Assembly: GCA_020052975.1 (NCBI GenBank)
Contig: JAGVOC010000182.1
Span: forward strand, 1 to 15,206
Source: Desulfobacterales bacterium
GTDB taxonomy: Bacteria > Desulfobacterota > Desulfobacteria > Desulfobacterales > RPRI01
DNA: 15,206 nt
Direction: 5' to 3'
The notes beneath the pieces are model-generated. The model was given only the letters and a program-made list of their open reading frames with translations. It made no database searches and had not been told where the DNA came from. Of the stretch, positions 1,393-15,206 are shown one piece after another (positions within the stretch are counted from its first letter, which is position 1; every line of letters starts with the position of its first letter). The position numbers were made by a program, and so were the translations under genes.

Positions 1393-1908
1393 TCATTTCA
1401 TAAAGCCCTTTGTTCCTATTTGTACTCCCATGGCTTCCCATTGCCTGATCTTCTTGATTCCCGATTTGACAATCTTGATGAGTTCACGAGCTTCTCGTTC
1501 TGACACTCGGTCCCGCGGAGTCATGGGTGCCAGCCGGTCATCTACGTCAACATATAGGGCAGCCATGCGCTTAGATGCGATGGGAATGATTGCGTCCTCG
1601 GGGAGTTCTTCAATATCGCCATGCGAAAATAGCACAGCCCATTGCGTGCGTTTTATTTTCCGCTTATGATCACGAAACGCTGCATCAAACTCCTCCCTCG
1701 GTATGAAGCCCGTAAACAGATCGGCGGCCAACTGTGACTTTGAAATCTCTTCAAGCGCAGTAAAGGCGAGAGCGTACGCACGCGGAAAGCTGCCTCGCTC
1801 GACCAACAGAGTCGCCTCTCCTAATAAGTCAGAGGCATTGTTCAGACACGCACGATAGGTTTCAAGAAGGTTCGGCTCAATACGCATTGACAACTGGCTT
1901 CCATCCAT
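1393..1908 (-). CDS. AbiV-family abortive infection protein (HEPN-like)
   Basis: The 171-aa helical protein matches the AbiV family of phage abortive-infection proteins, which belong to the HEPN superfamily. The key signature is at residues 43-57, R-A-Y-A-L-A-F-T-A-L-E-E-I-S-K, the alpha-helical Ala-rich 'ALEEIxK' core. It is followed by the F-x2-H-K-x-K element near residues 78-84 (H81, K82). AbiV is known from Lactococcus to block phage translation and to respond to a phage factor; whether this homologue does so is inference. The ATG at 1908 has no good SD, and an internal ATG at 1887 (MRIEPN) is the alternative start. A TATAAA hexamer on the minus strand (1947-1942) could be a -10 element, but its -35 is poor. 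The neighbours are a DUF4238 gene 73 bp upstream and the zinc-pattern gene 95 bp downstream. Codons are GC-richer than in the DUF4238 gene, so it may have been acquired separately. Confidence 0.82.
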   Translation of the reverse strand: MDGSQLSMRIEPNLLETYRACLNNASDLLGEATLLVERGSFPRAYALAFTALEEISKSQLAADLFTGFIPREEFDAAFRDHKRKIKRTQWAVLFSHGDIEELPEDAIIPIASKRMAALYVDVDDRLAPMTPRDRVSEREARELIKIVKSGIKKIRQWEAMGVQIGTKGFMK

Positions 1909-1981: not shown

Positions 1982-2842
1982 TTACCATTCGATACGACTC
2001 AAAAAGGGTTTGCTTTTCTTTGCAATTTTGTTGATCCAATCAGCCCTGTTACTCGCATAAATAAACCGGCTGGTTTTGTCAATCAATCTTCGGTTGGCCT
2101 CTCTTACTAAGAATTTCTGATCGATTACATTATTGCCATTGGAAACTGGTGTCCAACTACCGAAAATGGCCAGCTTGCGGGAGACTGGAAACGTCAGTTC
2201 AGATTTATCCGTACGAAGTCCATAACAATCGAAAAAGAACGCGGGATTATCGGACGTTAGAAAGCACTCATCGTCTTGAGCTTGGACAAAACGCCAATGC
2301 ATTTCGTATATAGCTTTAATAATGTTTTCGCTGGGCCAAGGACTCCTTATTTGTTTACGCACATTGCTTGGCGTTTGCAACTCGTACTTCGCTTCCACGA
2401 TATCTGTATCTGTTAAATATTTATTAGCTTGCAGTGCCGATATTTTGTCCGCACTTTGAAGCTCGCGAATTTTGTTGCGCAGGTCAGAAGTTATCTCTTT
2501 TAGAACCTCAGGCACCATCGCCTCGCCTTTGGCGCGATGATATGGAACTCGTTTGATCATTGTTGCGATGTAAATAGACAGATGAACTTTTTCTTCAACT
2601 GTCAAAGAAATATTTCCTGATCGAAGTTTTTCCAATACACAATTTCCGGGACGTTCAACTACCTCATTTAATGATGCTTCTGTCTCTGCATCATAAAATG
2701 TTCTTTGTTGGGCTATTTTTACAATTGATAATCTCTTATTTGAAAATGTGTATGTCTTTTTATCGAATTGCCAAAGTGCATTTGGGCACGTCGAATTAGT
2801 AAATCCCTTAAGATATTTTTGAGGAATATAATGACTGCCCAT
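1982..2842 (-). CDS. DUF4238 domain protein
   Basis: The 286-aa product fits DUF4238. The N-terminus reads M-G-S-H-Y-I-P-Q-K-Y-L-K-G-F, the family's hallmark 'HYxPQxYLxxF'. A second hallmark lies in the C-terminal half, C-F-L-T-S-D-N-P-A-F-F-F, followed by a F-P-V-S-R-K-L-A strand. The middle section is helical (residues about 70-150). The biochemical role of DUF4238 is not established. The conserved His near the N-terminus and the S-D-N-P motif suggest an enzyme active site, possibly a nuclease, but I cannot assign a reaction. The ATG start has GAGAG 3-4 nt upstream. It lies 12 bp after the stop of the HEPN-like gene, so the two are almost certainly co-transcribed and may work as a pair. Confidence 0.85.
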   Translation of the reverse strand: MGSHYIPQKYLKGFTNSTCPNALWQFDKKTYTFSNKRLSIVKIAQQRTFYDAETEASLNEVVERPGNCVLEKLRSGNISLTVEEKVHLSIYIATMIKRVPYHRAKGEAMVPEVLKEITSDLRNKIRELQSADKISALQANKYLTDTDIVEAKYELQTPSNVRKQIRSPWPSENIIKAIYEMHWRFVQAQDDECFLTSDNPAFFFDCYGLRTDKSELTFPVSRKLAIFGSWTPVSNGNNVIDQKFLVREANRRLIDKTSRFIYASNRADWINKIAKKSKPFLSRIEW

Positions 2843-3716: not shown

Positions 3717-4130
3717 TCATCCTTCGAGGAAGCGAATTAATTTCTTTTTTAGCGCTTCCATATCCTTCAGTTCGCACTCCCAAACGATCATTAATTCGAA
3801 GCCCTGATTGTTCAGCTTTTCGTAGTTATTCTTGTCGCGCTCTTTATTGCTAGCAAGTTTAGTTTGCCAGTAGTCTACATTTGTAGATGGTAAACGATCT
3901 CCCCGTTTGCAATTATGCCCATGCCAAAAGCAGCCATTCACGAATATGACTTTCTTACGGCGAGGAAAAACAATATCGGGCTTACCCGGCAGCTTGGAAT
4001 AGTGTAAACGATATCTGAAACCTAGAGAAAAAAGGAGCTGCCGGACTGCAAGCTCTGGGGCGGTATCAGTCGAACGAACGCGACGCATCACAGCGCTTCG
4101 GTCCATCGGTTCTTTCTTAGTCTTCCTCAT
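3717..4130 (-). CDS. vsr: Very short patch repair endonuclease
   Basis: Vsr nicks DNA at T:G mismatches left by deamination of 5-methylcytosine and so offsets the mutational cost of a C5 methyltransferase. Counting from the ATG at 4130 (137 aa, family size), the protein shows L-P-G-K-P-D-I-V-F with the metal-binding D52 and V-N-G-C-F-W-H-G-H-N-C at 64-74 (H70, H72, C74 near the zinc/active site). E26 lies in the N-terminal helix and I-V-W-E-C at 116-120. N65 stands where E. coli Vsr has His64; homologues vary there. Starts at 4136, 4130 and 4106 are all possible. An upstream ATG at 4181 would add 17 unlikely residues inside the preceding gene. The gene overlaps the GIY-YIG gene by 14 bp and follows the methyltransferase in the same operon, the expected partner arrangement. 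Confidence 0.9.
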   Translation of the reverse strand: MRKTKKEPMDRSAVMRRVRSTDTAPELAVRQLLFSLGFRYRLHYSKLPGKPDIVFPRRKKVIFVNGCFWHGHNCKRGDRLPSTNVDYWQTKLASNKERDKNNYEKLNNQGFELMIVWECELKDMEALKKKLIRFLEG

Positions 4131-4806
4131 TGCCATTGTTGCCGCCGACGCTGTCGTACCTTCGCTCCGCAAGCCACTCAAGACGCTTGGCTTGTGTCAT
4201 CAGAGTCTTTCGAAGTCCTTTGCTCACAAGTCGCTCGCTGATAACCTGAGCAAGGCGGGCAAGTATCAATGCTCTGCGAGCTATTCGAAAGTCCGGGTGC
4301 TTGCGAATCTTGTGGACCTCATTTGAGACTATACAACCCCGCAGCGACTCTGGAATGTCAATTGTTAAAGTTGGAAGAGCTGGGTCTTTCTCATTCAGTA
4401 TTGCTTTGAACTCCGATTCTTCGATTGCCTTCTGAAAGATGGTGTATTCAAGAGCATTTAACGTATCACATGCCTCACGATATTTTTCAGGTTCTGTAGA
4501 ATTCTTCGTTCCCTCGAAATTTATTAAGGGCCAAACTTCTATTTCATAGACTTCGAACGGGTCAAGCACAGACATTGCTACAGCATCAGTCCTTTGATTG
4601 GTTAGATGCCGACGGATTCTTGTCCGCAACTTCTCATTAGTCTGACCAACGTAGATGGGCTCCCCATCATAATCATAAAAAGCATAAACGCCGTACTTGA
4701 AATTCCCGACTTTTTGCCCCTCGAATTCTGTATCGAGGAATGTGGTCAGGTTTTTTCTTAGCTCATGAGTCTCAAAAGGCGGCTGATTGATGTCGTCATC
4801 GAGCAT
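4117..4806 (-). CDS. GIY-YIG endonuclease, likely restriction enzyme
   Basis: The 229-aa protein has an intact GIY-YIG nuclease core near the N-terminus. G39-V-Y41 and Y52-V-G54 are the two signature tripeptides. R61/R63/R65 lie in the following helix, E120 (L-E-Y-T-I-F) is the probable metal ligand, and N138 is in the A-I-L-N segment. The C-terminal 80 residues are helical and basic, probably DNA-contacting. Known GIY-YIG type II restriction enzymes (Eco29kI, Cfr42I, Hpy188I) and the methyltransferase next door support a restriction role; the sequence specificity cannot be read. The ATG at 4806 overlaps the methyltransferase stop as TGATG, so translation is coupled; a TTG at 4809 is in frame but less likely. 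It could instead be an accessory nuclease, for example one acting on damaged or modified DNA. Confidence 0.85.
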   Translation of the reverse strand: MLDDDINQPPFETHELRKNLTTFLDTEFEGQKVGNFKYGVYAFYDYDGEPIYVGQTNEKLRTRIRRHLTNQRTDAVAMSVLDPFEVYEIEVWPLINFEGTKNSTEPEKYREACDTLNALEYTIFQKAIEESEFKAILNEKDPALPTLTIDIPESLRGCIVSNEVHKIRKHPDFRIARRALILARLAQVISERLVSKGLRKTLMTQAKRLEWLAERRYDSVGGNNGNEED

Positions 4807-5936
4807 CAAGCAACCGCCAGGCGCTGTCGATTTGCCGCCAATATAGGCTCTAACAAGTTGCTGGCCAAGTGCCGAACAACGGGAACGGCGACACCGTCAC
4901 CTGCCAGATGATAAGCATCATTGTAGTTCGAAGGTAAGCTATAGCTATCGGGCAGACCCATAAGGCGCGCAGCTTCTCTCGTCGAAACGAGGCGGGACCG
5001 TATTTTTCTCCCTTCCACCACAATGATCGTTTGGCGACTAGAGCCGCCTGCTGGTGTACGCAAACATCCAGCGATGTCGTCAAATCTTACCTCGGCCCGA
5101 ACAATGCCTCCGCGCGTCCGACGATAAATTGCCCCAACCACGCGTCTGCCAGTTTTTTTCGCTTTTTTGACCTTTTCTAAATTAACTTCTGTCATCATGC
5201 TAAGAAGTCTTTTTGTCTCGGCAGCAGTATTCCATTTAACGCCTTGGGGTATTTCCTCGATGATATCCGCAAGAGTCTGATTCCGAGCGCTACGCGGATA
5301 TGGCAGGTTCCACCACATCCATTTTGAAGCGGCACGAGATGATATACCAAGATGTGCTTCGATCAGGGCTCGTGGATGCCACTCTGGATTAGACCCAGCA
5401 AGTACCATGCTGGACGGGATATTAAGATCGGGATGCACCCCTAATACAAATAATCTCGGGCGACTTTGCGGAACAAAATGAACGGCATCAACGACTACTG
5501 CGCCGAAGCGGTAATTGGATCCTGAAAAGGCTGAGGCAATTGCCGAAAAATCTTTACCCTGATGACTCGTTATTGCGCCATAGACATTTTCAATTACTAT
5601 CGTTTTTGGCCCTCGCCCCTCTTTGTTAAGGGAACGCATGAGTTCCCAGAATGGCCAGAAGGTGCCGCTGCGTTCAGCTCGAATACCGGCACCCGCACCT
5701 GCCAGCGATAAATCCTGACATGGAAACGAAGCCCAGGCTAGGTCTGCACGAGATGGAATATCAGAGGGTGAAAGAGAGCCGATGTCCGCAAGAAGCAGGT
5801 CATCTGCCCCCCAATTCAAGGTGTATGAAGCAGCTTTCTTCTTATCGATATCATTTGCGATGAGACATTTCCATCGCTTGCCGAGACCGGCTCTAGCCAT
5901 CCCCCCGCCCGCAAAAAACTCGTAATACGACGGCAC
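4806..5936 (-). CDS. DNA (cytosine-5) methyltransferase
   Basis: The 376-aa product carries the C5-methyltransferase motifs in order. Motif I (F-F-A-G-G-G-M-A, 7-14) binds SAM. Motif IV P-C-Q (72-74) provides catalytic Cys73. Motif VI E-N-V is at 116-118 and motif VIII Q-S-R-P-R at 157-161. A target-recognition region lies at about 185-280. Motif IX includes R-T-P-A-G-G-S-S-R-Q (293-302), and motif X is A-G-D-G-V-A-V-P-V (345-353). No motif is missing, so the enzyme should be active. The GTG start has an excellent GAGGAGG SD with a 7-nt spacer, and translation continues into the GIY-YIG gene via TGATG. It is clearly GC-richer than its neighbours. It is the first gene of the restriction-modification/Vsr operon, so the host DNA can be protected before the nuclease is made. 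Confidence 0.95.
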   Translation of the reverse strand: MPSYYEFFAGGGMARAGLGKRWKCLIANDIDKKKAASYTLNWGADDLLLADIGSLSPSDIPSRADLAWASFPCQDLSLAGAGAGIRAERSGTFWPFWELMRSLNKEGRGPKTIVIENVYGAITSHQGKDFSAIASAFSGSNYRFGAVVVDAVHFVPQSRPRLFVLGVHPDLNIPSSMVLAGSNPEWHPRALIEAHLGISSRAASKWMWWNLPYPRSARNQTLADIIEEIPQGVKWNTAAETKRLLSMMTEVNLEKVKKAKKTGRRVVGAIYRRTRGGIVRAEVRFDDIAGCLRTPAGGSSRQTIIVVEGRKIRSRLVSTREAARLMGLPDSYSLPSNYNDAYHLAGDGVAVPVVRHLASNLLEPILAANRQRLAVA

Positions 5937-5950: not shown

Positions 5951-6103
5951 ATTTCGTAATCTTACCTAGCTCTCCATCCCGTTCGAACAAAAAAGATAGA
6001 TTTAACTCTCTAATGGCCTGATAAACCTAAGGCTTGAAGCAATTGGCTTTGATTCGATAGAGTCTCGGTTTAAAAAAAACATACTACCCGCGCTCTTAGC
6101 CCT

Positions 6104-6232
6104 TTATATAGGGTCTTGCGTCCAACAGAGGTTGAAATCGCGAAGATATTCTTCGATATCTCCCCCAAGCTTAAAATCGCTACCATTGGGACAAAGTTCG
6201 ACAACGACTTCATGCCTACCTCCATATTTCAA
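6104..6232 (-). CDS. Possible 42-aa small ORF or gene remnant
   Basis: On the minus strand a TTG codon at 6232 opens a 42-codon frame ending in TAA (6106-6104). It encodes a plausible acidic, mixed-hydrophobic peptide ending N-L-C-W-T-Q-D-P-I. Composition and codon choice look like protein: a V-V-V-E-L-C-P-N-G strand and turn, then an acidic helix around G-G-D-I-E-E-Y-L. An in-frame TAG lies only six codons upstream and no ATG or GTG exists, so only TTG could start it, with no good SD. A rival frame (ATG at 6212, GGAGG upstream) gives a less protein-like sequence. It may be the 3' remnant of a lost gene. I do not recognise it. Confidence 0.3.
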   Translation of the reverse strand: MKYGGRHEVVVELCPNGSDFKLGGDIEEYLRDFNLCWTQDPI

Positions 6233-6274
6233 CGCACAATCATGGTCATCCTATTGCAAGGGCAAGGAAAGGTC

Positions 6275-6306
6275 AAAAAAAGGGCCGCCGGAGATTCCGA
6301 CGGCCC
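6275..6306 (-). terminator. Intrinsic terminator downstream of HNH gene
   Basis: Read on the minus strand, an 11-bp GC-rich stem (arms 6306-6296 and 6292-6282, one A/C mismatch, 3-nt loop) is followed at once by seven T (6281-6275). It lies 117 nt after the HNH stop and ends that transcript. An alternative 5-bp hairpin (6305-6309 with 6317-6321) shares two bases with the terminator stem. Confidence 0.88.
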
Positions 6307-6422
6307 CCAGTGACAGTGGGGTGGTGCGCATATTATCATTACATGGAAGGCTTTACATCGTACAAAGGTTGTATTTTGACCCGTAAAAATCTTATCTATC
6401 GACAGTGATTACTATTTTCAAA

Positions 6423-8168
6423 TTATTTAGTCTCACCCCGCGTTAAATCAGAGAATTTATCCCATCCTTCGAACATTTCACTACAAATAATACCCTCGTC
6501 GTTTAAGTAGAACCCTCTGAAGTACGCATTGTTTCCTCTAAAAAGCTCATGGTAGTCGTCCAAATTCGCCGAGATTAATACTTCAAGCTTCGGTTCGACA
6601 TTTACCGATAGCTCTGTTAAAAATCCTTCCCACTCGTAATCTTTCTCTTCGTCAAATTCAGATAGAATTTCTCCATTGTCATCCCATTTAGCCATCCAAG
6701 TTCCCAGAACGTCGAGCACATCATTCCATTCATAGTATTTCAGCAAACGAGCAACATCCTCTCCACGTGGTTTTAATCCACAGCGCTCAAATTGCAACGT
6801 TATTGATGCTAAAATTGCCGTCTGGATTAAAGACGCGACTGAATATTTGTTATAGGACTCGCGCTGGATCATATTGTAAGCGGTCTCGCCATTATCCTGT
6901 TTGTCTAATCCTGCAAGGTGTTGACAGGCTGCTATATATGTATCTCTGTTTGGAAACATCACTTGGCAAATTGTTGAGTAGGAGTGATATACAAATGGTA
7001 TGTCGCGCTCAATGTAATTGAAGAGATAGCTATTTAAATCCTGAAATCCTTGATGATAGGGTTTGTGAGTGCTAAGAATTCTAAGAGGCATCCCGAACGG
7101 AGCACTTTCTAATATGTAATCGTATAAAGCTTCATTTACTGCATTAATTGATTTGTCGATGTAGTTCCTCTTTAAATATTCTTCGAAAGATGCAGACAAA
7201 ACACGCAATCCACTTGTTAGATCATGCGCCTGTTCATCCTCGAAGCCGTAATTTTCCATTAGACTCATCTCAAGATCCACACTAGCACCAGTCAACTTCG
7301 TTGGAATGTCAATCTCTGTAGTCCTGAAATCAGGCCGTTTGTTAGCATCAATATTATCTTCTGGTTTGTCTTCCTCGACATCTTCATGCTCTTGATTGGG
7401 TTGATTAAGAGCATCCTCGATAACATTGCGAAATGCTGTCCAGCTATTGCATGTCTTTGCTTGCCTTTCGATCCAATCAACTGAAATATCAGCTTCAGCT
7501 GCCTGTTCCAAAAGCGGCATTAGTTGCCATTCATTTAAATATGAAAGACGATTACGGAGTATGCCTCTGATATAAAAAAGGCGCCTTAGGTAGGGCTTCT
7601 CATCCGACACCTCCTCGACCTTTAATATTCCGCCAACTTTCTTAAAAGCAATCTCAGCGGTTTCTTTAATGACGTTTTTATTCTCATCAAGTCGGATGTA
7701 CTGTTCTGTAGCGGTGTCGATTGCCTGTAATAGTTTTGCCAGGCCATATTTTTTTAGTAGCTTTTTAAGCGTTTTCTTTCCCTCAACCGTTGCATCTAGG
7801 CCTGGTACATTGGAAGCCCAATATTCTGCGACTTTATCGACTTGCACTTGATCTAGATCTTTAAGCTCTTCATGCCAGACCATCATCATTTCCATTTGCT
7901 GTCTTCTCTCGTTCAAAAGCTCGGCCTGCTTTTGACTTTTTCTTACAGCTGTATCATCGTCCAGCTCTCGATCACTTTTCCCCAAATTGCAGTCACGACA
8001 TGAAGTGATCAGATTTATGATGTCGTCAGAACCACCCTTCGAGTGCGGCTTAATATGGTCAACGTGAAGAATCACAGTTGGTGCCGATTTGCCGCAATAC
8101 TGGCAGGTAAAGGAGTCTCTTTTGAAGACCTCCATCCTCAATTTCTTTGATATTCCCTTACGCTTCAT
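6423..8168 (-). CDS. HNH endonuclease with long C-terminal extension
   Basis: The 581-aa protein starts with a classical zinc-bound HNH nuclease. C22-x2-C25, H35-V-D37-H38, N52 and C57-x2-C60 followed by N61 form the beta-beta-alpha metal site, so it should cleave or nick DNA. Residues about 75-115 are strongly helical and charged, perhaps coiled coil. A helical region to about 270 follows, then an acidic linker (about 272-290). The remaining 290 residues (N-I-D to the end) form an extra domain I do not recognise, helical and Tyr/Phe-rich. Free-standing HNH domains are about 60-100 aa, so this is a large fusion. The ATG at 8168 has AAAGGA (8184-8179) with a 10-nt spacer. That SD overlaps the -35 of the divergent promoter. 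The gene has its own terminator and seems monocistronic. Defence or a mobile-element role is inferred from context only. Confidence 0.87.
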   Translation of the reverse strand: MKRKGISKKLRMEVFKRDSFTCQYCGKSAPTVILHVDHIKPHSKGGSDDIINLITSCRDCNLGKSDRELDDDTAVRKSQKQAELLNERRQQMEMMMVWHEELKDLDQVQVDKVAEYWASNVPGLDATVEGKKTLKKLLKKYGLAKLLQAIDTATEQYIRLDENKNVIKETAEIAFKKVGGILKVEEVSDEKPYLRRLFYIRGILRNRLSYLNEWQLMPLLEQAAEADISVDWIERQAKTCNSWTAFRNVIEDALNQPNQEHEDVEEDKPEDNIDANKRPDFRTTEIDIPTKLTGASVDLEMSLMENYGFEDEQAHDLTSGLRVLSASFEEYLKRNYIDKSINAVNEALYDYILESAPFGMPLRILSTHKPYHQGFQDLNSYLFNYIERDIPFVYHSYSTICQVMFPNRDTYIAACQHLAGLDKQDNGETAYNMIQRESYNKYSVASLIQTAILASITLQFERCGLKPRGEDVARLLKYYEWNDVLDVLGTWMAKWDDNGEILSEFDEEKDYEWEGFLTELSVNVEPKLEVLISANLDDYHELFRGNNAYFRGFYLNDEGIICSEMFEGWDKFSDLTRGETK

Positions 8169-8182
8169 GACATCTAAATCCT

Positions 8183-8211
8183 TTGACAGAAGAACATGCT
8201 CGTGATAGATT
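8183..8211 (+). promoter_or_regulatory. Sigma70-type promoter of the 154-aa gene
   Basis: A perfect TTGACA at 8183-8188, a 17-bp spacer and TAGATT at 8206-8211 (4 of 6) form a strong candidate promoter. It predicts a start near 8218 and a leader of about 54 nt before the GTG at 8272. The -35 overlaps the SD of the divergent HNH gene. Confidence 0.72.
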
Positions 8212-8258
8212 TTCCGACTAATGAGCTAAGACCATCAGCTTGGTTGTCTAACCCGAGT

Positions 8259-8265
8259 AAAGGAG
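8259..8265 (+). promoter_or_regulatory. SD fixing the GTG start at 8272
   Basis: AAAGGAG lies 6 nt upstream of the GTG. This favours GTG over the internal ATG codons. Confidence 0.75.
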
Positions 8266-8271
8266 CGATTC

Positions 8272-8736
8272 GTGGCAAAAGTCAAGTACGAGAATATCAT
8301 GCAGGACTGGGATGCGCATATGCCTGGTATGGAGGCAAAAATTGAGGATTTCTATAATTTCCTTATTGAAGCATGGAATCAGAAGCAGACCGGCCTCGAA
8401 ACGGATTGGGAGAATGTTGGCGGTCTATTCGGGAAAAAGAAACGGATGATGAAGATCAAATGGAATAGTTATTGCTGTTATATCGGGGCGGAGAGCTTCG
8501 GAACTGATCTTTGCTGTACATGGCAACTATACGATCCGAAATTTAACCGCACAGGAAGTGATTACACCTTGTCTGGCCTATTCAAGTCGGATTTCAATGA
8601 AATCAACGAAGTAAGAGCCTTCGCCGCAGTATGTCTCGATTGCGCTCAAAAGGCAGCAGACAAGATTTGCGACGACAATAACCTGGATAAATCCAAGATC
8701 AAAAAGCAGAGCAGCGGCGCACTCGGGCCTCTCTAG
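8272..8736 (+). CDS. Uncharacterised 154-aa Cys-containing protein
   Basis: I recognise no family. The product is soluble, with no signal peptide or membrane span. The first 45 residues look helical and acidic. A basic turn (G-K-K-K-R) follows, then beta-strand-like segments holding two vicinal Cys pairs (C-C near 68-69 and 81-82). A helix with further Cys (near 121-135) and a Lys-rich polar tail complete it. Paired cysteines could bind metal or form disulphides. Expression signals are unusually clear: TTGACA/TAGATT promoter, AAAGGAG SD and GTG start. The stop codon lies inside a CTAG shared with the stop of the convergent ATPase gene. That tight junction suggests the two were inherited as a unit, but no functional link is shown. 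Confidence 0.8.
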   Translation: MAKVKYENIMQDWDAHMPGMEAKIEDFYNFLIEAWNQKQTGLETDWENVGGLFGKKKRMMKIKWNSYCCYIGAESFGTDLCCTWQLYDPKFNRTGSDYTLSGLFKSDFNEINEVRAFAAVCLDCAQKAADKICDDNNLDKSKIKKQSSGALGPL

Positions 8737-10163
8737 GTCAGAAAACTATCGGGTTCGTCATTATCGAGAGGCTGCGGCTCAACAGGAAAAGATATTCTTT
8801 CATCCATCTTTTTCATGCTTTGGGTGTAACCCGATTCCTTGTTAGCCGCCCGCAGCCTATTTTGGTTTTCTTCCAGTCGCCAGCTTTCATAAAGGTCAAA
8901 AGTTCTGAACCTGTGTGGTTCAAGTCCTTTGGTCTTTAAAATCGCCAATTGGGTTTGCAGGCTCGTAATATGCGATATCCCGTTTTCACGTTGCTCGTCT
9001 TTTGAAAACCAAGTTGTCACCCTACCATCAATCATGTATTTCCAGTCGAACGGGTCATAGTCCTTAATGTATTTGACGATTAGCTCCGCGTCCTGCCTGT
9101 CACAGCGATATATAACGAAGTTCTTGGCGTTCCCGAGGATAATGTCCCTTAATTGCTGGTCGAGTTGAACCAAACTCTGATGAGCGAGAATGAGTGATAG
9201 TCCGTATTTCCTGGCTTCGCTCATAATCTCGGCAAAGCTTAGAGTCGCATAGTTTTGAAACTCATCCACGTAAAAATAAAAAGGCTTCCTATCCGATGGC
9301 CTTAAATCAACTCTGGACATGGCCGCCATTTGTATTCTCGCAACAAAAAGAGCACCTAAAAGAAAGCTGTTCGTTCTTAGAACTCCTTTTGCGAGATTAA
9401 TCAGAATTGCTTTCTCATCATCCATGATCTTTCTGAACTCAATCGTTGATTTCTTGGCTGAGAGCATGAGCCGGATTCTAGGGTCAGAAGTAAAAGACGA
9501 AACCTTGTTCAACGTAGATTCGATATTTGAGACTCTGTCGTTCTCAGTCCACTTGTTAAATCGATTCTCCCAAAACGAGGCAACAGCTTCATAAGTGACG
9601 AATCTCATCTTTTCCTGCCTGAACTGTTCATTGGTAAGAAGTGGTTCGATGTCAAGCATTGTCCCGCCGGATTCAATCAGGGTCAGCACGGAGTTTCTAA
9701 GAATTTCAATAAGCCTGGGCGTTGTGTCGTCTGACAGATTCCAAATTTTTCTGAAAACATCGACTAATTCCAGTGTCTGGGTATAGGGATCAATTCCGTC
9801 TTGCTGTTCGAGAGGATTGAAGCCAATGATATTGTCAGGATCGGTCATTTCGACCAGGACAACTCGGTGAAAATCCTCCAGGTTTCCAACGATGTCATTT
9901 ACTAGATCGCCGTGAGGATCTATAACCCCGCAGCCATTTCCCGCCTTAATATCTTCCAAAATCCAATTTGCAAGCCCCTTAGACTTGCCAACCCCTGAAC
10001 TGCCCAGGACATAGACGTGGGTGGACCTGTCCTCTTCGGGCAAATAAAAACCGGCTAGCTCGCCGGAATCGTCATATGTAATACCAAGTTTAAGTGCTGA
10101 ATTCATAATTTTCTTGACAATGAATTTCTGAATTGTATCATTACGTCTCTTGATCCTCGACAA
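8733..10163 (-). CDS. VirD4/TraG/HerA-like ATPase without membrane anchor
   Basis: The 476-aa protein is a RecA-fold DNA-translocase ATPase. Walker A is G-S-S-G-V-G-K-S at 54-61, I-D-P-H-G-D-L is at 81-87, and G-F-N-P-L near 114-118 is typical of the type IV coupling-protein/HerA clan. Walker B F-Y-F-Y-V-D-E-F-Q at 295-303 has D300-E301, and A-H-Q-S at 327-330 is the sensor-like motif. Coupling proteins of conjugation normally carry N-terminal membrane helices. None is visible here, and no relaxase or type IV secretion gene is in the window. A soluble HerA-type or defence ATPase is therefore as likely as a conjugation remnant. The TTG at 10163 has GGAG 5 nt upstream; an ATG at 10106 (MNSALKLG) would shorten it by 19 residues and would clear the promoter at 10114-10141. 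It converges on the 154-aa gene, overlapping 4 bp. Confidence 0.88.
   Translation of the reverse strand: MSRIKRRNDTIQKFIVKKIMNSALKLGITYDDSGELAGFYLPEEDRSTHVYVLGSSGVGKSKGLANWILEDIKAGNGCGVIDPHGDLVNDIVGNLEDFHRVVLVEMTDPDNIIGFNPLEQQDGIDPYTQTLELVDVFRKIWNLSDDTTPRLIEILRNSVLTLIESGGTMLDIEPLLTNEQFRQEKMRFVTYEAVASFWENRFNKWTENDRVSNIESTLNKVSSFTSDPRIRLMLSAKKSTIEFRKIMDDEKAILINLAKGVLRTNSFLLGALFVARIQMAAMSRVDLRPSDRKPFYFYVDEFQNYATLSFAEIMSEARKYGLSLILAHQSLVQLDQQLRDIILGNAKNFVIYRCDRQDAELIVKYIKDYDPFDWKYMIDGRVTTWFSKDEQRENGISHITSLQTQLAILKTKGLEPHRFRTFDLYESWRLEENQNRLRAANKESGYTQSMKKMDERISFPVEPQPLDNDEPDSFLT
10114..10141 (+). promoter_or_regulatory. Sigma70-type promoter of the carbamoyltransferase operon
   Basis: TTGACA (10114-10119), a 16-bp spacer and TATCAT (10136-10141, 5 of 6) are close to consensus. 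The predicted start is near 10148, 49 nt before the ATG at 10197. It lies inside the first codons of the divergent ATPase gene if that gene begins at its TTG, and upstream of it if the ATG at 10106 is used. Confidence 0.72.
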
Positions 10164-10172
10164 TCTTACTCC

Positions 10173-10196
10173 AGAAGTTCTTAAGAAAGAAGTTCT
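10173..10196. repeat. Direct repeats and palindrome in the divergent gap (possible operator)
   Basis: AGAAGTTCT occurs at 10173-10181 and again at 10188-10196, 15 bp apart. Between and partly inside them is the perfect 10-bp palindrome TTCTTAAGAA (10178-10187). All of it sits in the 33-bp gap between two divergent start codons, downstream of the -10 element. This is a sensible place for a repressor site or an mRNA structure. Chance occurrence in AT-rich DNA cannot be excluded. Confidence 0.4.
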
Positions 10197-11870
10197 ATGA
10201 ACATTTTAGGTGTTAATGGCTGGTTCACCAGAAGTCATGACGCTTCTGCTGCCCTGATAAGCGATAATCGGTTAATCGCCTTTATTGAAGAAGAAAGACT
10301 AACAAGGCATAAACATGCATTTGAACAACTTCCTCATCGAGCTATCGACTTTTGTCTAAGAGAGGCCAATTTAACGTTAGATGATATAGATTTTTTCTCC
10401 ATTGGCTGGGATTACTTAAAGAAATATAAGCTCAGAAATATCCCAATTCCCAGACAGGCGAACAAACTCATAGATCTATATCTACCCAGAGAACTTTTCA
10501 CGAGAAAAGTTGACCCCAAGTTAAGAATTGTAGACCATCATCGTGCTCATGCGACAGCAGCATTTCAGATGTCTGGTTTCGATGAGAGTGCCGTAATGGT
10601 GTTAGATGGACAGGGAGAATATTGTTCAATTTCTCTTTGGCTAGCAGCTAACAATGAACTCAAGCAGATTCTAACTTTACCTGTTCATTCTTCTCTAGGT
10701 TATTTCTACGAAGCCGTGAGTGTTTATTTGGGCTTTAGTCCACTGTCGAGTGGTAAAACCATGGGTTTATCGGCATATGGAAAAGAAGTTTATCCAATTA
10801 CATCTGTGGTCTGTCACGAGGATGGTTTTAATTTTAAATGCATGAGCGAGAGTAATTATTCGATGGGTAAGCTAGATGATCAAGAGCTACTACTTGGACA
10901 TTGGCGGAAAGAATTTCTTAGTAATTTAAACTTTCCTCCCGCCGCGGGTTCCGCAGTCCTTGATAAATGTTTCTCCGTAGAAGAAGCAAATATTGCATTA
11001 TCCGGCCAGACAATTGTTGAAAAATGTGTTCTTCATTTGGCTTCGATATTGAAAACTAAAAGTAAAACAAACAATCTATGTTTAGCTGGAGGCACAGCCC
11101 TAAATTGCTGTGTAAATACCTCTCTTGTAACAAGTGGCTTTTTCCAAAACGTTCATGTATCTCCAATCATTAATGATGCCGGGGTTAGTTTAGGGTCAGC
11201 ACTTCATGTTGCCATGACAGAATCTAATTACAAGACTCCTTTTGAATGGAGTGTTTATAGCGGTCCTTCCTATTCAAACGAGCAGGCTTCAAATACTTTA
11301 TCCAAGTACAAAATTGATCATAGGCAAATTGACCAGCCGCATAAGACGGCAGCAAGTTTGCTGGCACAAGGAAAAATACTAGGTTGGTTTCAAGGAAAAT
11401 CTGAAATGGGGCCAAGAGCCCTCGGAAACAGAAGCATACTCGCTGATGCCCGCATATCAGATATGAGAGATAGAGTAAATAGAATAAAAATTAGAGAACG
11501 GTGGCGGCCATTTGCTCCAAGTGTTTTAGAGGAAGATGCTAAAAATTATTTTTCTGAATCCTGGGATTCTCCTTTTATGTTGTTTACATATGGCATCAAA
11601 CCTAAATACCGCCAATTGATTCCCGCTGTATGCCACATAGATAACAGTTCTCGACCTCAGACTGTAAGCAAGAGTCACAATTTTCAATTTTGGTTACTTC
11701 TGCAAGAGTTTAAAAAAATCACCAGTATATCTGCTGTTTTGAATACTTCATTTAATGATAGTTCGGAACCCATCGTTTGTTCACCGGAAGATGCTGCAAA
11801 AATGTTTCTACGATCAAATTTGGATGCACTTATTATTGGTAACATGTTGGCGACAAAAACCTCGGGTTGA
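10197..11870 (+). CDS. Carbamoyltransferase, NodU/CmcH/TobZ family
   Basis: The 557-aa enzyme matches the family that moves a carbamoyl group from carbamoyl phosphate to a hydroxyl on sugars or antibiotics via a carbamoyl-adenylate. The N-terminal Kae1-like domain shows S-H-D-A-S-A-A (13-19), E-E-E-R-L-T-R, D-H-H-R-A-H-A (metal-binding His), V-L-D-G-Q-G-E and G-K-T-M-G-L-S-A-Y-G. It also has L-A-G-G-T-A-L-N and N-D-A-G-V-S-L-G. The C-terminal domain shows S-E-M-G-P-R-A-L-G-N-R-S, R-W-R-P-F-A-P-S and the closing L-N-T-S-F-N. Length and motif set look complete, so it should be active. Known members decorate Nod factors, cephamycin and aminoglycosides; the substrate here is unknown, though the GT4 gene nearby suggests a sugar. 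It leads a three-gene operon from a near-consensus promoter. The SD before the ATG is modest (AAGAAAG). Confidence 0.95.
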   Translation: MNILGVNGWFTRSHDASAALISDNRLIAFIEEERLTRHKHAFEQLPHRAIDFCLREANLTLDDIDFFSIGWDYLKKYKLRNIPIPRQANKLIDLYLPRELFTRKVDPKLRIVDHHRAHATAAFQMSGFDESAVMVLDGQGEYCSISLWLAANNELKQILTLPVHSSLGYFYEAVSVYLGFSPLSSGKTMGLSAYGKEVYPITSVVCHEDGFNFKCMSESNYSMGKLDDQELLLGHWRKEFLSNLNFPPAAGSAVLDKCFSVEEANIALSGQTIVEKCVLHLASILKTKSKTNNLCLAGGTALNCCVNTSLVTSGFFQNVHVSPIINDAGVSLGSALHVAMTESNYKTPFEWSVYSGPSYSNEQASNTLSKYKIDHRQIDQPHKTAASLLAQGKILGWFQGKSEMGPRALGNRSILADARISDMRDRVNRIKIRERWRPFAPSVLEEDAKNYFSESWDSPFMLFTYGIKPKYRQLIPAVCHIDNSSRPQTVSKSHNFQFWLLLQEFKKITSISAVLNTSFNDSSEPIVCSPEDAAKMFLRSNLDALIIGNMLATKTSG

Positions 11871-11883
11871 AACGTTGGCGAAT

Positions 11884-12276
11884 ATGGAATCATCACTTAT
11901 CATGATTAAACCAGACGCCTATCAACGAGATCTAGTGCCAAAAATAAAGAATGCAATTTTTGATCTTGAATTAACAATCACAAGAACAAAAAAGATTTCC
12001 TTAGATAGATGGGACATATTAGAATTGTGGCCAAAGATTCATACTCTTTGGGGTTGGCTGTCGAGTCAGCAATATATTGTTGGTCACACGTTAGAAGTTT
12101 GGGAAATATGCGGTGAAGATGCCGTAGAAAAAATATGCCACTTGAAAAAACAGCTTAGAGAAATTTACTGCGATCCAAAAGATGCCGTTCATACCTTAAT
12201 CCACGCACCAGATTCTAGTGCCGATTTTTTCCGAGAGAGAAAACTCTTATTTGATATTTTAAGAATTAGACTCTAA
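11884..12276 (+). CDS. Compact nucleoside diphosphate kinase-like protein
   Basis: The 130-aa product resembles NDK, which transfers phosphate between NTPs and NDPs via a phospho-His. It has S-L-I-M-I-K-P-D-A at 4-12, including the conserved Lys and the KPDA signature. Near the C-terminus T-L-I-H-A-P-D-S (104-111) matches the 'NxxHGSDS' active site, with H107 as the likely phospho-acceptor; Asn is replaced by Thr and Gly by Ala. The central part is divergent (W-G-W-L-S-S-Q-Q), and housekeeping NDK is slightly longer (about 140). It may therefore be a specialised paralogue for a pathway nucleotide. The ATG at 11884 follows the carbamoyltransferase stop by 13 bp and puts the NDK N-terminus at the right place. 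The longer frame from 11755 overlaps the upstream gene and is not credible. The gene ends TAATG into the next gene. Confidence 0.8.
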   Translation: MESSLIMIKPDAYQRDLVPKIKNAIFDLELTITRTKKISLDRWDILELWPKIHTLWGWLSSQQYIVGHTLEVWEICGEDAVEKICHLKKQLREIYCDPKDAVHTLIHAPDSSADFFRERKLLFDILRIRL

Positions 12277-13031
12277 TGGACCAACAAACCTACATAAATA
12301 ACGTATTAGATAATGAGGAGTTTTTATCTCTGAGGAAGGCTAAATTATCCATTGTTGTGACGGGATCTAGCGCAGGAATAGGCAACGATACTTTTAGCGA
12401 TTGGGATTTTAAAATTTTTGTTGACAATTACGGTTTTCACCAATTCGAAGAAACATTTGGGGGTAAGTTTGCATTAGAAGATAACGATCATGAACCACCA
12501 TGTTTCGTTCTTGTGCGACCTATTTCTTTTCTAAATCAGGAATTTTTAGAAAATCAGCCAATTGCATTATGGATTTACCAAAACTCAAAAGTTCTTAGGG
12601 ATGATAATAACCAATTACGTGATTTTCTTGGATATCAACAAGAGACTTTTGATACGGCTTTAGAAAAATTAATTCATAGCAAGTATTTGCGGTTACGCTG
12701 CAGACGACATGCGTTAGATAACTCGATAAAGAGAGGAGATGATTTAACAGTTGAGCTACTAAAAGCAGATGTGGTCATTCATGGCTTTGAGTTATTGCAT
12801 TTGATCAATGGAAAGCCCTTTCCATATCCGAAGTGGCTCTTGTTGTCAGCTAAGTATAACTTCATAGAAACACACGAAGAGCTGTTGCTTATAGCTGGTA
12901 GTTTAATCTCGTCGTCCGCTGATTCCCAAATTATTCAGGCTTCACGTAACTATGTTGATATTATTATTGGACTTATGGTTGATAAGGGATATGATGCCGA
13001 TCTTCTTAAATCTTGGTGGTTTAATATTTAG
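12276..13031 (+). CDS. Nucleotidyltransferase-fold protein
   Basis: The 251-aa protein carries the polymerase-beta-type nucleotidyltransferase signature. V-V-T-G-S-S (27-32) is followed by S-D-W-D-F (41-45), so G30-S31 and D42-x-D44 match the 'GS...DxD' motif that binds metal and NTP. The third carboxylate is not obvious. From about residue 120 the protein is helical (K-Y-L-R-L-R-C-R-R-H), as in small-molecule nucleotidyltransferases. These enzymes attach NMP to antibiotics, sugars or proteins; which applies here is unknown. The start overlaps the NDK-like stop as TAATG, so it is translationally coupled. The 3' end overlaps the convergent kinase gene by 11 bp, and no terminator is visible. 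With carbamoyltransferase and NDK-like genes upstream, a role in nucleotide activation of the same product is a reasonable inference. Confidence 0.83.
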   Translation: MDQQTYINNVLDNEEFLSLRKAKLSIVVTGSSAGIGNDTFSDWDFKIFVDNYGFHQFEETFGGKFALEDNDHEPPCFVLVRPISFLNQEFLENQPIALWIYQNSKVLRDDNNQLRDFLGYQQETFDTALEKLIHSKYLRLRCRRHALDNSIKRGDDLTVELLKADVVIHGFELLHLINGKPFPYPKWLLLSAKYNFIETHEELLLIAGSLISSSADSQIIQASRNYVDIIIGLMVDKGYDADLLKSWWFNI

Positions 13032-13533
13032 AGTAATTTACTAATTCTACTTTACACTCCAATTCTTTAATCATGTCTACTAAATAACTGTAATAATTTC
13101 TAACAAATGCGGGATTATTTAACAAAATAGGAGTTCTTAAATATTTTTCATTACATTGATTGGTGACGACTTCAATAACGCTTCCCAAATTTACATCTAT
13201 TAAGATCACCTTATCTGGGGAAAATTTCTCAGCACTACTGATAAGCTGATTGTATCTTTCTTCATTACCTATTGCTTTTAAATATGCTAAGACGGAAATA
13301 CGACATCTGTCTAATACGACAATAAATCCTGAGGATTTTAATTCAACAGCTTTTTTTTCCAAATCAATAAATTTCTTAAAGTACCAGAACTCAATATCGT
13401 GTATTTCTTCATCATTTTTGAGATGATCTGGCTCTGGAAAATAGTAAGCTCCCAGAGAAAAGGCGAGCTGTTTTGCGAAAGTAGTTTTTCCAGAATGCCA
13501 AATACCTTCAACCACGATAATTTTACCAATCAT
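13021..13533 (-). CDS. P-loop kinase, deoxynucleoside/thymidylate kinase-like
   Basis: The 170-aa protein begins with a kinase core. Beta strand K-I-I-V-V-E leads into Walker A G-I-W-H-S-G-K-T (10-17). E23-E24-like acidic residues follow, and V-V-L-D-R is at 72-76 (D75-R76). The 'DR' plus P-loop layout is that of thymidylate and deoxynucleoside kinases, and K-V-I-L-I-D-V (107-113) supplies another central strand. The length (170) is short for dTMP kinase (about 210). The lid region appears reduced or altered, so the acceptor could be a nucleoside, a sugar or another small molecule. The ATG is 1 bp after the GT4 stop, and the gene is third in the minus operon. Its stop overlaps the convergent nucleotidyltransferase gene. 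The P-loop is certain, the substrate unknown. Confidence 0.82.
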   Translation of the reverse strand: MIGKIIVVEGIWHSGKTTFAKQLAFSLGAYYFPEPDHLKNDEEIHDIEFWYFKKFIDLEKKAVELKSSGFIVVLDRCRISVLAYLKAIGNEERYNQLISSAEKFSPDKVILIDVNLGSVIEVVTNQCNEKYLRTPILLNNPAFVRNYYSYLVDMIKELECKVELVNYSKY

Positions 13534-13534
13534 C

Positions 13535-14794
13535 TTATAAGTGATCCTCTCTTCTTATCCTTCTGATTCTCTGAGTGACAGTATTTGAGTTTACAAATCT
13601 ACTTTCTGTTAGCCACAGAGGCTTGGGAATTCTGTCAATAGATAAGATTCTAGCTGTGCCAGGAAGATTTGATGTTATTGTAAATTTATCATGTCTTTTT
13701 CGTTTGACCGTTCTCAAATACACCTCAGCTAACTTCTCTATCAAAACATCCCATGAATAATTTTTCATCATCATATTATTCAAATTTTTGCCCATTATGT
13801 GTGCTTCCGTTGGATTGTTAAGTAACCAAGTTATCTTATTAGTAAACGAACTTAATGAGTCAGCTATTAGGAAATCTTGTTCATTTATATATCCCCTCAC
13901 TGCTAGCCGAGTTGCAACAATAGGAAGAGAGTGATTGGCATAGGTTAGTAACTTCACTTTCATGCCTGACCCTTGAAATAAGGGTGCGATGCCCACAGTT
14001 GCTTTATCTAGAATCATGCCTATGTCATCAATCTCACCCATCATTTCAATCCCAGCCCGTTGTTTGCGTGCCAATTCAGGTGGGGTTCTTCCAATAAAGA
14101 TAAAAAGAGCGTTAGGAAAAACATCTAATGTACCTGGGGCAATAACATCTATAATTTTATTGGCAGCATCAAAATTGGGTCCGTAAAATAAATTTCCGAG
14201 AAAAATCACTTTTTGTTCATTTCTCATCTCCGTAGAGCTTGAACGTGGGTCAATTCCGTTAGGTATGTGATGAAGCTTCTCCTCCTTTATTCCCAATTTA
14301 ACGAGATGCTCGTAATCATAAGAAGACATACAAATGATTTCATCACAGCATAAACTTGTTACATATTGCAGTACTTTCGCTTCGTATATTTCCTGCTGAC
14401 CTTTACCCATGCTTTCGAGCAAATGAAAGTCAACATCATGCATATCGCAAATTAAGGGTATGTCCAATTGCTCTGCAATATAGCTACCATAGGAGAGCAC
14501 AACAATATGTGAATTACATACATGTAATACATCAATCTTGTCTTCACGTAAAATTTTTATGACTTGCTTTATCCGGTCATCGTACAACCATTCAGCTGGA
14601 AACAATGTAAAGTCAAGATTTTCCTTATTTAGATCTTCGTCTGTAGTCCAGCCGCGATCTCCCAAGTAGAACCTGACCGAAATTTGCCCTTCTGCTTTAG
14701 CCCTTTGAAGATGCTTAGCTACATGATAAGCCCTGTAAGTAACTCCATCTTTGGGTGGCAAAGAGAGGCCATCAAATAAGAGACCTATTCGCAT
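13535..14794 (-). CDS. Glycosyltransferase, GT4 family
   Basis: The 419-aa GT-B fold protein has M-R-I-G-L-L-F-D-G-L at the N-terminus. I-D-V-L-H-V-C-N-S-H closes the acceptor domain and H-I-P-N-G-I-D starts the linker to the donor domain. K-V-I-F-L-G-N-L-F-Y follows. The donor site I-A-P-L-F-Q-G-S-G-M (265-275) leads into K-V-K-L-L-T-Y-A, where most GT4 enzymes have a Glu at the T position (K-x-L-E-A/Y). Together with Q instead of the first Glu, the EX7E catalytic pair is not conserved. This may reduce or alter activity, or mark an unusual subgroup. Residues about 360-419 form a basic extra tail ending R-I-R-R-I-R-R-E-D-H-L. The ATG overlaps the peptide gene by 10 bp, so the two are coupled. 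The SD is weak. A natural-product or surface-glycan sugar transfer is the expected role. Confidence 0.9.
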   Translation of the reverse strand: MRIGLLFDGLSLPPKDGVTYRAYHVAKHLQRAKAEGQISVRFYLGDRGWTTDEDLNKENLDFTLFPAEWLYDDRIKQVIKILREDKIDVLHVCNSHIVVLSYGSYIAEQLDIPLICDMHDVDFHLLESMGKGQQEIYEAKVLQYVTSLCCDEIICMSSYDYEHLVKLGIKEEKLHHIPNGIDPRSSSTEMRNEQKVIFLGNLFYGPNFDAANKIIDVIAPGTLDVFPNALFIFIGRTPPELARKQRAGIEMMGEIDDIGMILDKATVGIAPLFQGSGMKVKLLTYANHSLPIVATRLAVRGYINEQDFLIADSLSSFTNKITWLLNNPTEAHIMGKNLNNMMMKNYSWDVLIEKLAEVYLRTVKRKRHDKFTITSNLPGTARILSIDRIPKPLWLTESRFVNSNTVTQRIRRIRREDHL

Positions 14795-14988
14795 AGTTCA
14801 CAATGCTGTTTCATCAATTTGCAGTTATTTTTGGTTTTACACGGATGAGAACTATCGTAAAATTCATTATGTAATTTAGCGCCCGCTTCGTTAATTTCGA
14901 CGAGAATTTGCTTGCTGGGGGAAAATATATAAAAACGTCCATCCATAACCCCACAAATAACACCGCTTTTTTTGTTTTGGTCATTCAC
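14785..14988 (-). CDS. Small Cys-rich peptide with PqqD-like N-terminus
   Basis: The 67-aa product starts at GTG (14988) with CGGGAA 6 nt upstream. Its N-terminal 41 residues look like the beta-strand plus helix of a PqqD/RiPP-recognition fold: G-R-F-Y-I-F-S-P (17-24), then L-V-E-I-N-E-A-G-A-K-L (29-39) as the 'LNxxGaxi' helix start. The last 18 residues are dense in Cys (C50, C56, C63, C66) after H49-P, ending C-E-L-C-E; C12 is the only other. It could be a precursor peptide with a folded leader and Cys core, a tiny metal or Fe-S protein, or a truncated recognition domain. It is not a known family to me. It is first in the operon and overlaps the glycosyltransferase start by 10 bp, which links it to modification or glycosylation. 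Confidence 0.62.
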   Translation of the reverse strand: MNDQNKKSGVICGVMDGRFYIFSPSKQILVEINEAGAKLHNEFYDSSHPCKTKNNCKLMKQHCELCE

Positions 14989-15081: not shown

Positions 15082-15206
15082 ATGTCAATCAGATTTTTAA
15101 AGCTCATCTTATTTGCTAAAGGAAATTATGCGTCACCCAAAGGGCAGCTCATTGAAAGCAATCCAAAGGAACTAATTTGGAAAATGTTCTTCTTATCGGA
15201 GGTATG
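15082..15206 (+). CDS. Partial ORF running off the right end
   Basis: An ATG at 15082 opens a frame of 41 complete codons with no stop before the window end. The in-frame codons upstream reach a TAA at 15067. The peptide starts M-S-I-R-F-L-K-L-I-L-F-A-K, hydrophobic then polar. No clear SD precedes the ATG. It is divergent from the Cys-rich peptide operon, 93 bp away. I cannot assign a family. A short alternative ORF (15128, 15 codons, good AAAGGA) overlaps in another frame. Confidence 0.45.
   Translation, partial: MSIRFLKLILFAKGNYASPKGQLIESNPKELIWKMFFLSEV

Follow-up and report, generated by a model that had tools for sequence, protein, structure and literature searches.

A candidate tailoring cassette encoding a TobZ-type carbamoyltransferase, a divergent NDK-like protein and an ANT-fold nucleotidyltransferase in a Desulfobacterales contig

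Introduction

Nucleoside diphosphate kinases (NDKs) are familiar mostly for their housekeeping role. TobZ, the tobramycin O-carbamoyltransferase, belongs with GdmN and NodU to the class III carbamoyltransferases, for which the general base and the iron ligands (His/His/Asp/Asp) of GdmN serve as the reference for residue roles (PMC9633730, cited, like the other reports below, from an excerpt). 5-Carbamoyloxymethyl-dC is the product of a TobZ-family enzyme encoded on a contig of modified DNA, and the carbamoyltransferases of this kind co-occur with thymidylate synthase homologs (excerpt of PMC8670742). DUF4037 has been grouped with the C-terminal domain of aminoglycoside nucleotidyltransferases (excerpt of PMC3710099), and in the tailoring of the lasso peptide pseudomycoidin PsmK phosphorylates and PsmN adds a hexose (excerpt of PMC9266682). 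Here, we describe a locus of a Desulfobacterales bacterium (assembly GCA_020052975.1, contig JAGVOC010000182.1; 15,206 nucleotides, the whole of which is referred to as the window) in which a TobZ-type carbamoyltransferase (CT), a divergent NDK-like protein and a nucleotidyltransferase (NT) form a rightward operon. It converges on a leftward operon for a 67-residue open reading frame (ORF), a GT4 glycosyltransferase and a P-loop kinase (Table 1). Our preferred but tentative reading, to which we give somewhat less than even weight, is that of a horizontally acquired tailoring cassette in which a sugar-like substrate with a hydroxyl group is the target of the CT–NDK–NT operon.

The carbamoyltransferase

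The CT contains both the Carbam_trans_C and Carbam_trans_N domains (Pfam E-values of 4e-66 and 3.4e-49, respectively) and matches TobZ structures across residues 1–554 with E-values of 8.3e-115 to 2.8e-113. His14, His114, His118, Asp137 and Asp327 are invariant in all six CTs that were aligned. As judged by pairing these residues with the GdmN roles by position and motif (GdmN itself being outside the alignment), the CT keeps the iron site and the general-base His of class III enzymes, and carbamoyl transfer is predicted. The likeness to TobZ thus described, in both domains, over the full length and in the iron-site and base residues, contrasts with an identity of 36–39% to the plasmid CTs aligned and of 29–37% to the genome loci. 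Unlike in the TobZ setting, no aminoglycoside scaffold genes were recognised in the window.

The relatives of the CT are distant. Plasmids gave 311 records, all below 60% identity (35.8–38.3% among the 20 matches listed), phages gave 142 records (29.5–32.2% identity among the 20 matches listed) and a scan of genomes gave at least 592 stretches and at least 12 loci, with identities of 29–37%. The search of viral_contigs returned no relatives.

The NDK-like protein and the nucleotidyltransferase

Among 5.8 billion proteins the NDK-like protein has two homologs (95 and 58% identical) and the NT has five matches, one of which is the window's own and the others of which are 86, 42, 36 and 38% identical by local alignment; the search needs shared exact words, and more distant relatives could escape it. 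One metagenomic protein of 386 residues (P0007) is a natural fusion with NDK-like and NT domains in one chain, the NDK part being named by Pfam and the NT part by alignment. This fusion supports a link between the two proteins, which is the sole neighbour link in the cassette with independent support.

The NDK-like protein shares with nucleoside diphosphate kinases the PF00334 domain, the KPD lysine, the catalytic His and the Ser of HxxDS, and a late Glu, all of which are kept in four of four members of its family. It departs from them in the canonical nucleotide site, where four of the five positions examined are replaced in all four family members but kept in 8/8 housekeeping NDKs. We take the four replaced positions to be Phe60, Arg88, Thr94 and Asn115, and assume their roles likewise. 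In the remaining column, presumably that of Arg105, the family members have His, His, Arg and Arg; the alignment is uncertain here and no claim is drawn from it. Nine alignment columns are deleted relative to the housekeeping NDKs, and LELWPKIHTLWGWL is invariant in the NDK-like family. Because the catalytic His is kept but several positions conserved in housekeeping NDKs are replaced, the family probably represents a new subfamily in which the acceptor has changed. The protein may be a phosphotransferase with an altered acceptor or an inactive enzyme retained as a partner. By profile, the closest NDK of known structure is 2b8q, a probable NDK which we take to be the mimivirus enzyme.

The housekeeping set (L018–L025) consists of the eight best scorers in a scan with the NDK family alignment (A2), and is therefore a biased sample in which some members are nearly alike. 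The A2 profile matched 179 of 398 genomes with a best score of 34.9 bits, and these eight loci, when read, look like ordinary NDKs. Against genome_contigs the same alignment gave 43 pattern stretches and no relatives, and no relative of the NDK-like protein was found in viral_contigs.

The NT carries DUF4037 (Pfam E-value of 5.6e-6), and nearly the whole length of its predicted model (217–230 residues) matches ANT(4′) and LinB, at 12–16% identity. To judge from the model, it shares with these enzymes the fold, the D-x-D motif and a helical HEPN-type C-terminal domain. The Ser, Asp, Trp and Asp of its SDWD motif are invariant in 5/5 family members; the third acid and the base were not located. 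The NT differs from ANT(4′) and LinB in its pairing with, or fusion to, an NDK-like domain, and in an invariant KYLRLRCxRH motif, in a long helix after the NT domain, at a place where ANT presumably has acidic residues. No relatives of the NT were found in viral_contigs or plasmids. Whole genomes gave matches in 0/7, 0/398, 1/295, 0/188 and 0/193, which are weak negatives as no genome is known to match. The one match was not counted, being a 66-residue, 21-bit stretch inside a 586-residue frame.

Layout of the cassette and the leftward operon

All six ORFs lie between positions 10197 and 14988, where the original prediction, made from the letters alone, had placed them (Table 1), and Pfam assigns a family to five of the six proteins, the 67-residue ORF being the exception. 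In the rightward operon, the CT and NDK genes are separated by 13 bases and the NDK and NT genes overlap by one base (TAATG); in the leftward operon, a one-base gap separates the kinase and GT4 genes and the latter overlaps the 67-residue ORF by ten bases. The 3′ ends of the operons, at the NT and kinase genes, overlap by 11 bases, and the junction is free of any terminator site (four sites in the window, 3.5 expected), so that the overlapping ends and the lack of terminators noted originally both hold. Promoter-like matches precede the CT (11 of 12, positions 10114–10141, forward strand) and the 67-residue ORF (10 of 12, positions 15088–15060, reverse strand); the window has 19 such matches compared with 17.7 by chance, which is no excess, so both may be fortuitous. 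The claim that all of the genes are AT-rich stands in the mean, the cassette having a G+C content of 0.372 and the ten other window genes compared one of 0.437, but the per-gene ranges touch (0.310–0.394 and 0.389–0.511, respectively). The AT-richness is a trend without a sharp border.

Table 1. Coordinates of the cassette genes and of features in their flank.
Feature	Position in window	Strand	Evidence
TobZ-type (class III) O-carbamoyltransferase (CT), 557 aa	10197–11870	+	PF02543 + PF16861, TobZ structure matches, key residues
Divergent NDK-like protein, 130 aa	11884–12276	+	PF00334 1.4e-8, homologs, alignment
Nucleotidyltransferase (NT), 251 aa, kanamycin nucleotidyltransferase / ANT fold, SDWD motif, DUF4037	12276–13031	+	
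dTMP-kinase-like P-loop kinase, 170 aa	13021–13533	-	PF02223, Walker A
GT4 glycosyltransferase, 419 aa	13535–14794	-	PF13439, PF13692
67-aa ORF, 5 Cys (4 within last 18 residues), GTG start	14785–14988	-	ORF, no family
AbiV-family HEPN protein	1393–1908	-	PF18728 4.1e-25; PADLOC AbiV 1.6e-8
DUF4238 protein	1982–2842	-	Defence-like part of window
Dcm-type cytosine methyltransferase, GIY-YIG protein, Vsr nicking endonuclease	3717–5936	-	Tight overlapping gene row
581-aa protein, N-terminal HNH domain	6423–8168	-	PF01844 1.3e-14
TraG/VirD4/HerA-like ATPase	8733–10163	-	Profile scans

The CT, NDK, NT, kinase and GT4 genes are not chance ORFs, because close homologs exist for the NDK-like protein, the NT and the kinase, and the CT and GT4 match strong families. 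The kinase passes the PF02223 cut-off (E-value of 3e-7; 30.8 bits compared with 27) but reaches only 40.5 bits with the dTMP kinase model TIGR00041, the cut-off of which is 83.25. Its Walker A motif is GIWHSGKTT, and the P-loop also weakly resembles deoxynucleoside-kinase relatives in sequence. Besides itself, the kinase has one homolog (81% identical) among the 5.8 billion proteins, and none in plasmids.

The GT4 matches PF13439 (4.3e-16) and PF13692 (5.7e-14). It resembles XrtA-linked glycosyltransferases but by score would fall outside the XrtA-system model TIGR03087 (82.1 bits, far below the cut-off of 316.65). No solved structure was found for it by sequence at 0.01. At the expected second Glu of E-x7-E, which we take to be the donor-binding motif of GT4 enzymes, with its second Glu at this position, the protein has a Thr (KLLTYAN). 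Plasmids contain 32 records related to the GT4, one of which covers 80% of it at 26% identity; viral_contigs contain none.

With five Cys among its 67 residues the small ORF is, as read, the Cys-rich peptide that had been predicted. It matched no Pfam or NCBIfam family, and no homologs were found in plasmids or viral contigs, the two collections searched. A GCGGGA precedes its GTG, making the start plausible, and its codon score (0.074 per codon) exceeds those of the other five frames at that place. The score lies within the range of the ten other window genes (0.019–0.110) although one antisense ORF is higher (0.117); it was trained on the five other cassette genes (0.13–0.17), which are hence unfit as a yardstick. 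The case for a real gene is weaker than for the five others. A single-sequence model has a β-β-β-α arrangement of low confidence (pLDDT of 52.5). In a PqqD comparison with 30 sequences, the protein gave an hhalign score of 14.8 (probability of 3.2% over 21 residues), and Pfam found no PqqD family match. None of 200 shuffles reached this score and ten chance window ORFs scored 6.5–9.1; the NDK-like protein and the kinase, which are unrelated controls, scored 15.96 (2.6%) and 14.01 (0.9%), respectively.

Proposed function

In the tailoring cassette that we favour, the CT would form carbamoyl-AMP from carbamoyl phosphate and ATP and then carbamoylate a hydroxyl group, as is known for its family, the most likely substrate being a sugar or an aminocyclitol-like compound, as for TobZ. 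Like other enzymes of its fold, the NT would transfer a nucleoside monophosphate to a hydroxyl group, either of this substrate or of a related one. The NDK-like protein may form one unit with the NT and move phosphate via the kept His, its acceptor no longer being an ordinary nucleoside diphosphate. In the leftward operon, the GT4 would add a sugar and the P-loop kinase would phosphorylate, with the 67-residue protein as their acceptor or as a small helper. Because the CT and the NT independently point to aminoglycoside-type acceptors, a sugar-like substrate common to both would be the simplest reading. We infer, rather than see, every substrate, the order of the reactions and co-expression, and a single product common to both operons is likewise conjectural. 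The support that we count for the cassette comprises the TobZ match, the five key CT residues, the NT fold and its DUF4037 domain, the P0007 fusion and the TAATG overlap, and also the tight gene order in each operon and the common mean composition.

The glycosylated, carbamoylated, nucleotide-activated product originally proposed is plausible from the gene families. A bolder and unlikely version is that the NDK-like protein and the ANT-fold NT form a new two-step enzyme, in which a phosphohistidine transferase with a rebuilt nucleotide pocket donates phosphate to, or accepts it from, a sugar to which the NT has added a nucleotide. The TobZ-type enzyme would carbamoylate the same molecule and, with the GT4–kinase operon, mobile DNA would carry a hitherto undescribed pathway to a nucleotide-like compound with carbamoyl and sugar groups. 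A rare NDK subfamily that retains the His, has much of the remaining nucleotide site changed and is fused to an antibiotic-nucleotidyltransferase fold would represent a novel type of partner in phosphotransfer, and could be used as a marker in the search for further cassettes of this sort. Were the six genes to act together, they would point to a class of carbamoylated compounds that is yet to be explored. The families are known individually; the literature searches made did not turn up the NDK subfamily or its combination with an ANT-fold NT. Searches on the gene set as a whole found no description within the terms and library used, in agreement with the initial view that it is not a described pathway.

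Alternative explanations

A chance meeting of two unrelated cargo modules (CT–NDK–NT and GT4–kinase–67-residue ORF) in a mobile hot spot, with only home and base composition in common, is nearly as likely as one shared product, and several results weigh in its favour and against a single unit. Six-gene synteny in unrelated genomes had been set beforehand as the test of a unit and received no support: none of the 17 CT loci fetched (five plasmid and 12 genome, with L008, L013 and L015 under 10 kb) carries a relative of the other five proteins detectable by tblastn with the six cassette proteins at an E-value of 0.01, a comparison that detects relatives of these proteins and not any GT4 or P-loop kinase. 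No ORF in these loci matches the NT or NDK profiles. Of the predicted unit, only the NDK–NT pair is supported, through the P0007 fusion; the six-gene linkage was not seen. As far as seen, the set appears confined to this contig, with close relatives as possible further carriers. AbiV, Dcm, Vsr, GIY-YIG, HNH and TraG/HerA-like genes make the flank a mixed island, and the longest contigs differ between the nearest NDK/NT homologs (6072 bases) and those of the kinase (4531 bases), lengths that show neither linkage nor its absence. The two operons are, however, both AT-rich on average and interlock by 11 bases, although some flank genes come close to them in AT-richness. The nearest homologs of the NDK-like protein, NT and kinase (95, 86 and 81% identical) look as if one relative had both operons, which is no proof.

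The remaining explanations assign the genes other roles. It is rather improbable that they form a unit of the ribosomally synthesized and post-translationally modified peptide (RiPP) type, in which the 67-residue protein serves either as the precursor or, like PqqD, in recognition, and the kinase, GT4 and NT decorate a peptide. These genes adjoin one another and pseudomycoidin, in the excerpt of PMC9266682, is a precedent that shares a kinase and a nucleotidyltransferase with glycosylation; the cassette differs in its dTMPK-like kinase and its additional CT and NDK genes, and no lasso enzymes were recognised in the window. The PqqD score exceeds all shuffles and chance ORFs, but its probability is low and the NDK-like protein and kinase score alike; nor did the window ORFs scanned include a recognisable protease or cyclase. 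A self-protection or resistance-type module, with the NT inactivating an aminoglycoside-like compound and the other genes as bystanders, would suit the mobile setting and the closest folds of the NT, ANT(4′) and LinB, but is very improbable given an identity of at most 16% and an NT that shares an operon with the CT and occurs elsewhere as a fusion with an NDK-like domain. The least probable explanation is nucleic acid modification, in which the CT would carbamoylate a hydroxymethylated base and the kinases would handle modified nucleotides. It has the 5-carbamoyloxymethyl-dC precedent (excerpt of PMC8670742) and the nearby nucleotide kinases on its side, whereas no thymidylate synthase homolog was present among the window ORFs scanned with Pfam, in a contig that ends soon past the cassette, and the phage CTs listed are less similar to the CT than the plasmid CTs listed.

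Genomic surroundings and other CT loci

The cassette adjoins defence and transfer genes (Table 1), and a horizontal origin, within a mobile-looking fragment, is proposed. No other conjugation genes were recognised among the window ORFs scanned, and the whole window had no match to plasmids by megablast. The Dcm-type methylase also matches the PADLOC DruM model at 1.9e-158. The 581-residue HNH protein scores on the IscB and Cas9d profiles, under their cut-offs, and has no family over its remainder.

At four of the CT loci (L006, L009, L011 and L013), Pfam analysis of 20 neighbouring ORFs identified radical SAM, methyltransferase, GT2 and PIG-L genes, and at L009 also APS-kinase, PPDK-like and NTP-transferase genes. 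To judge from these assignments, the neighbours have comparable chemistry but belong to families other than those of the cassette. L009, from an archaeal metagenome-assembled genome, has two tandem TobZ-like carbamoyltransferases (positions 8257–11668) near these last genes and a GATase gene. On a Moellerella plasmid (L002, positions 5989–11934), a CT is followed by hypothetical, DUF6270, SIS, histidine phosphatase and HAD genes between insertion sequences, and is another mobile CT cassette with different company. At the very end of the window (positions 15190–15206, forward strand), GGAGGTATG looks like the start of another rightward gene that is truncated by the end of the contig.

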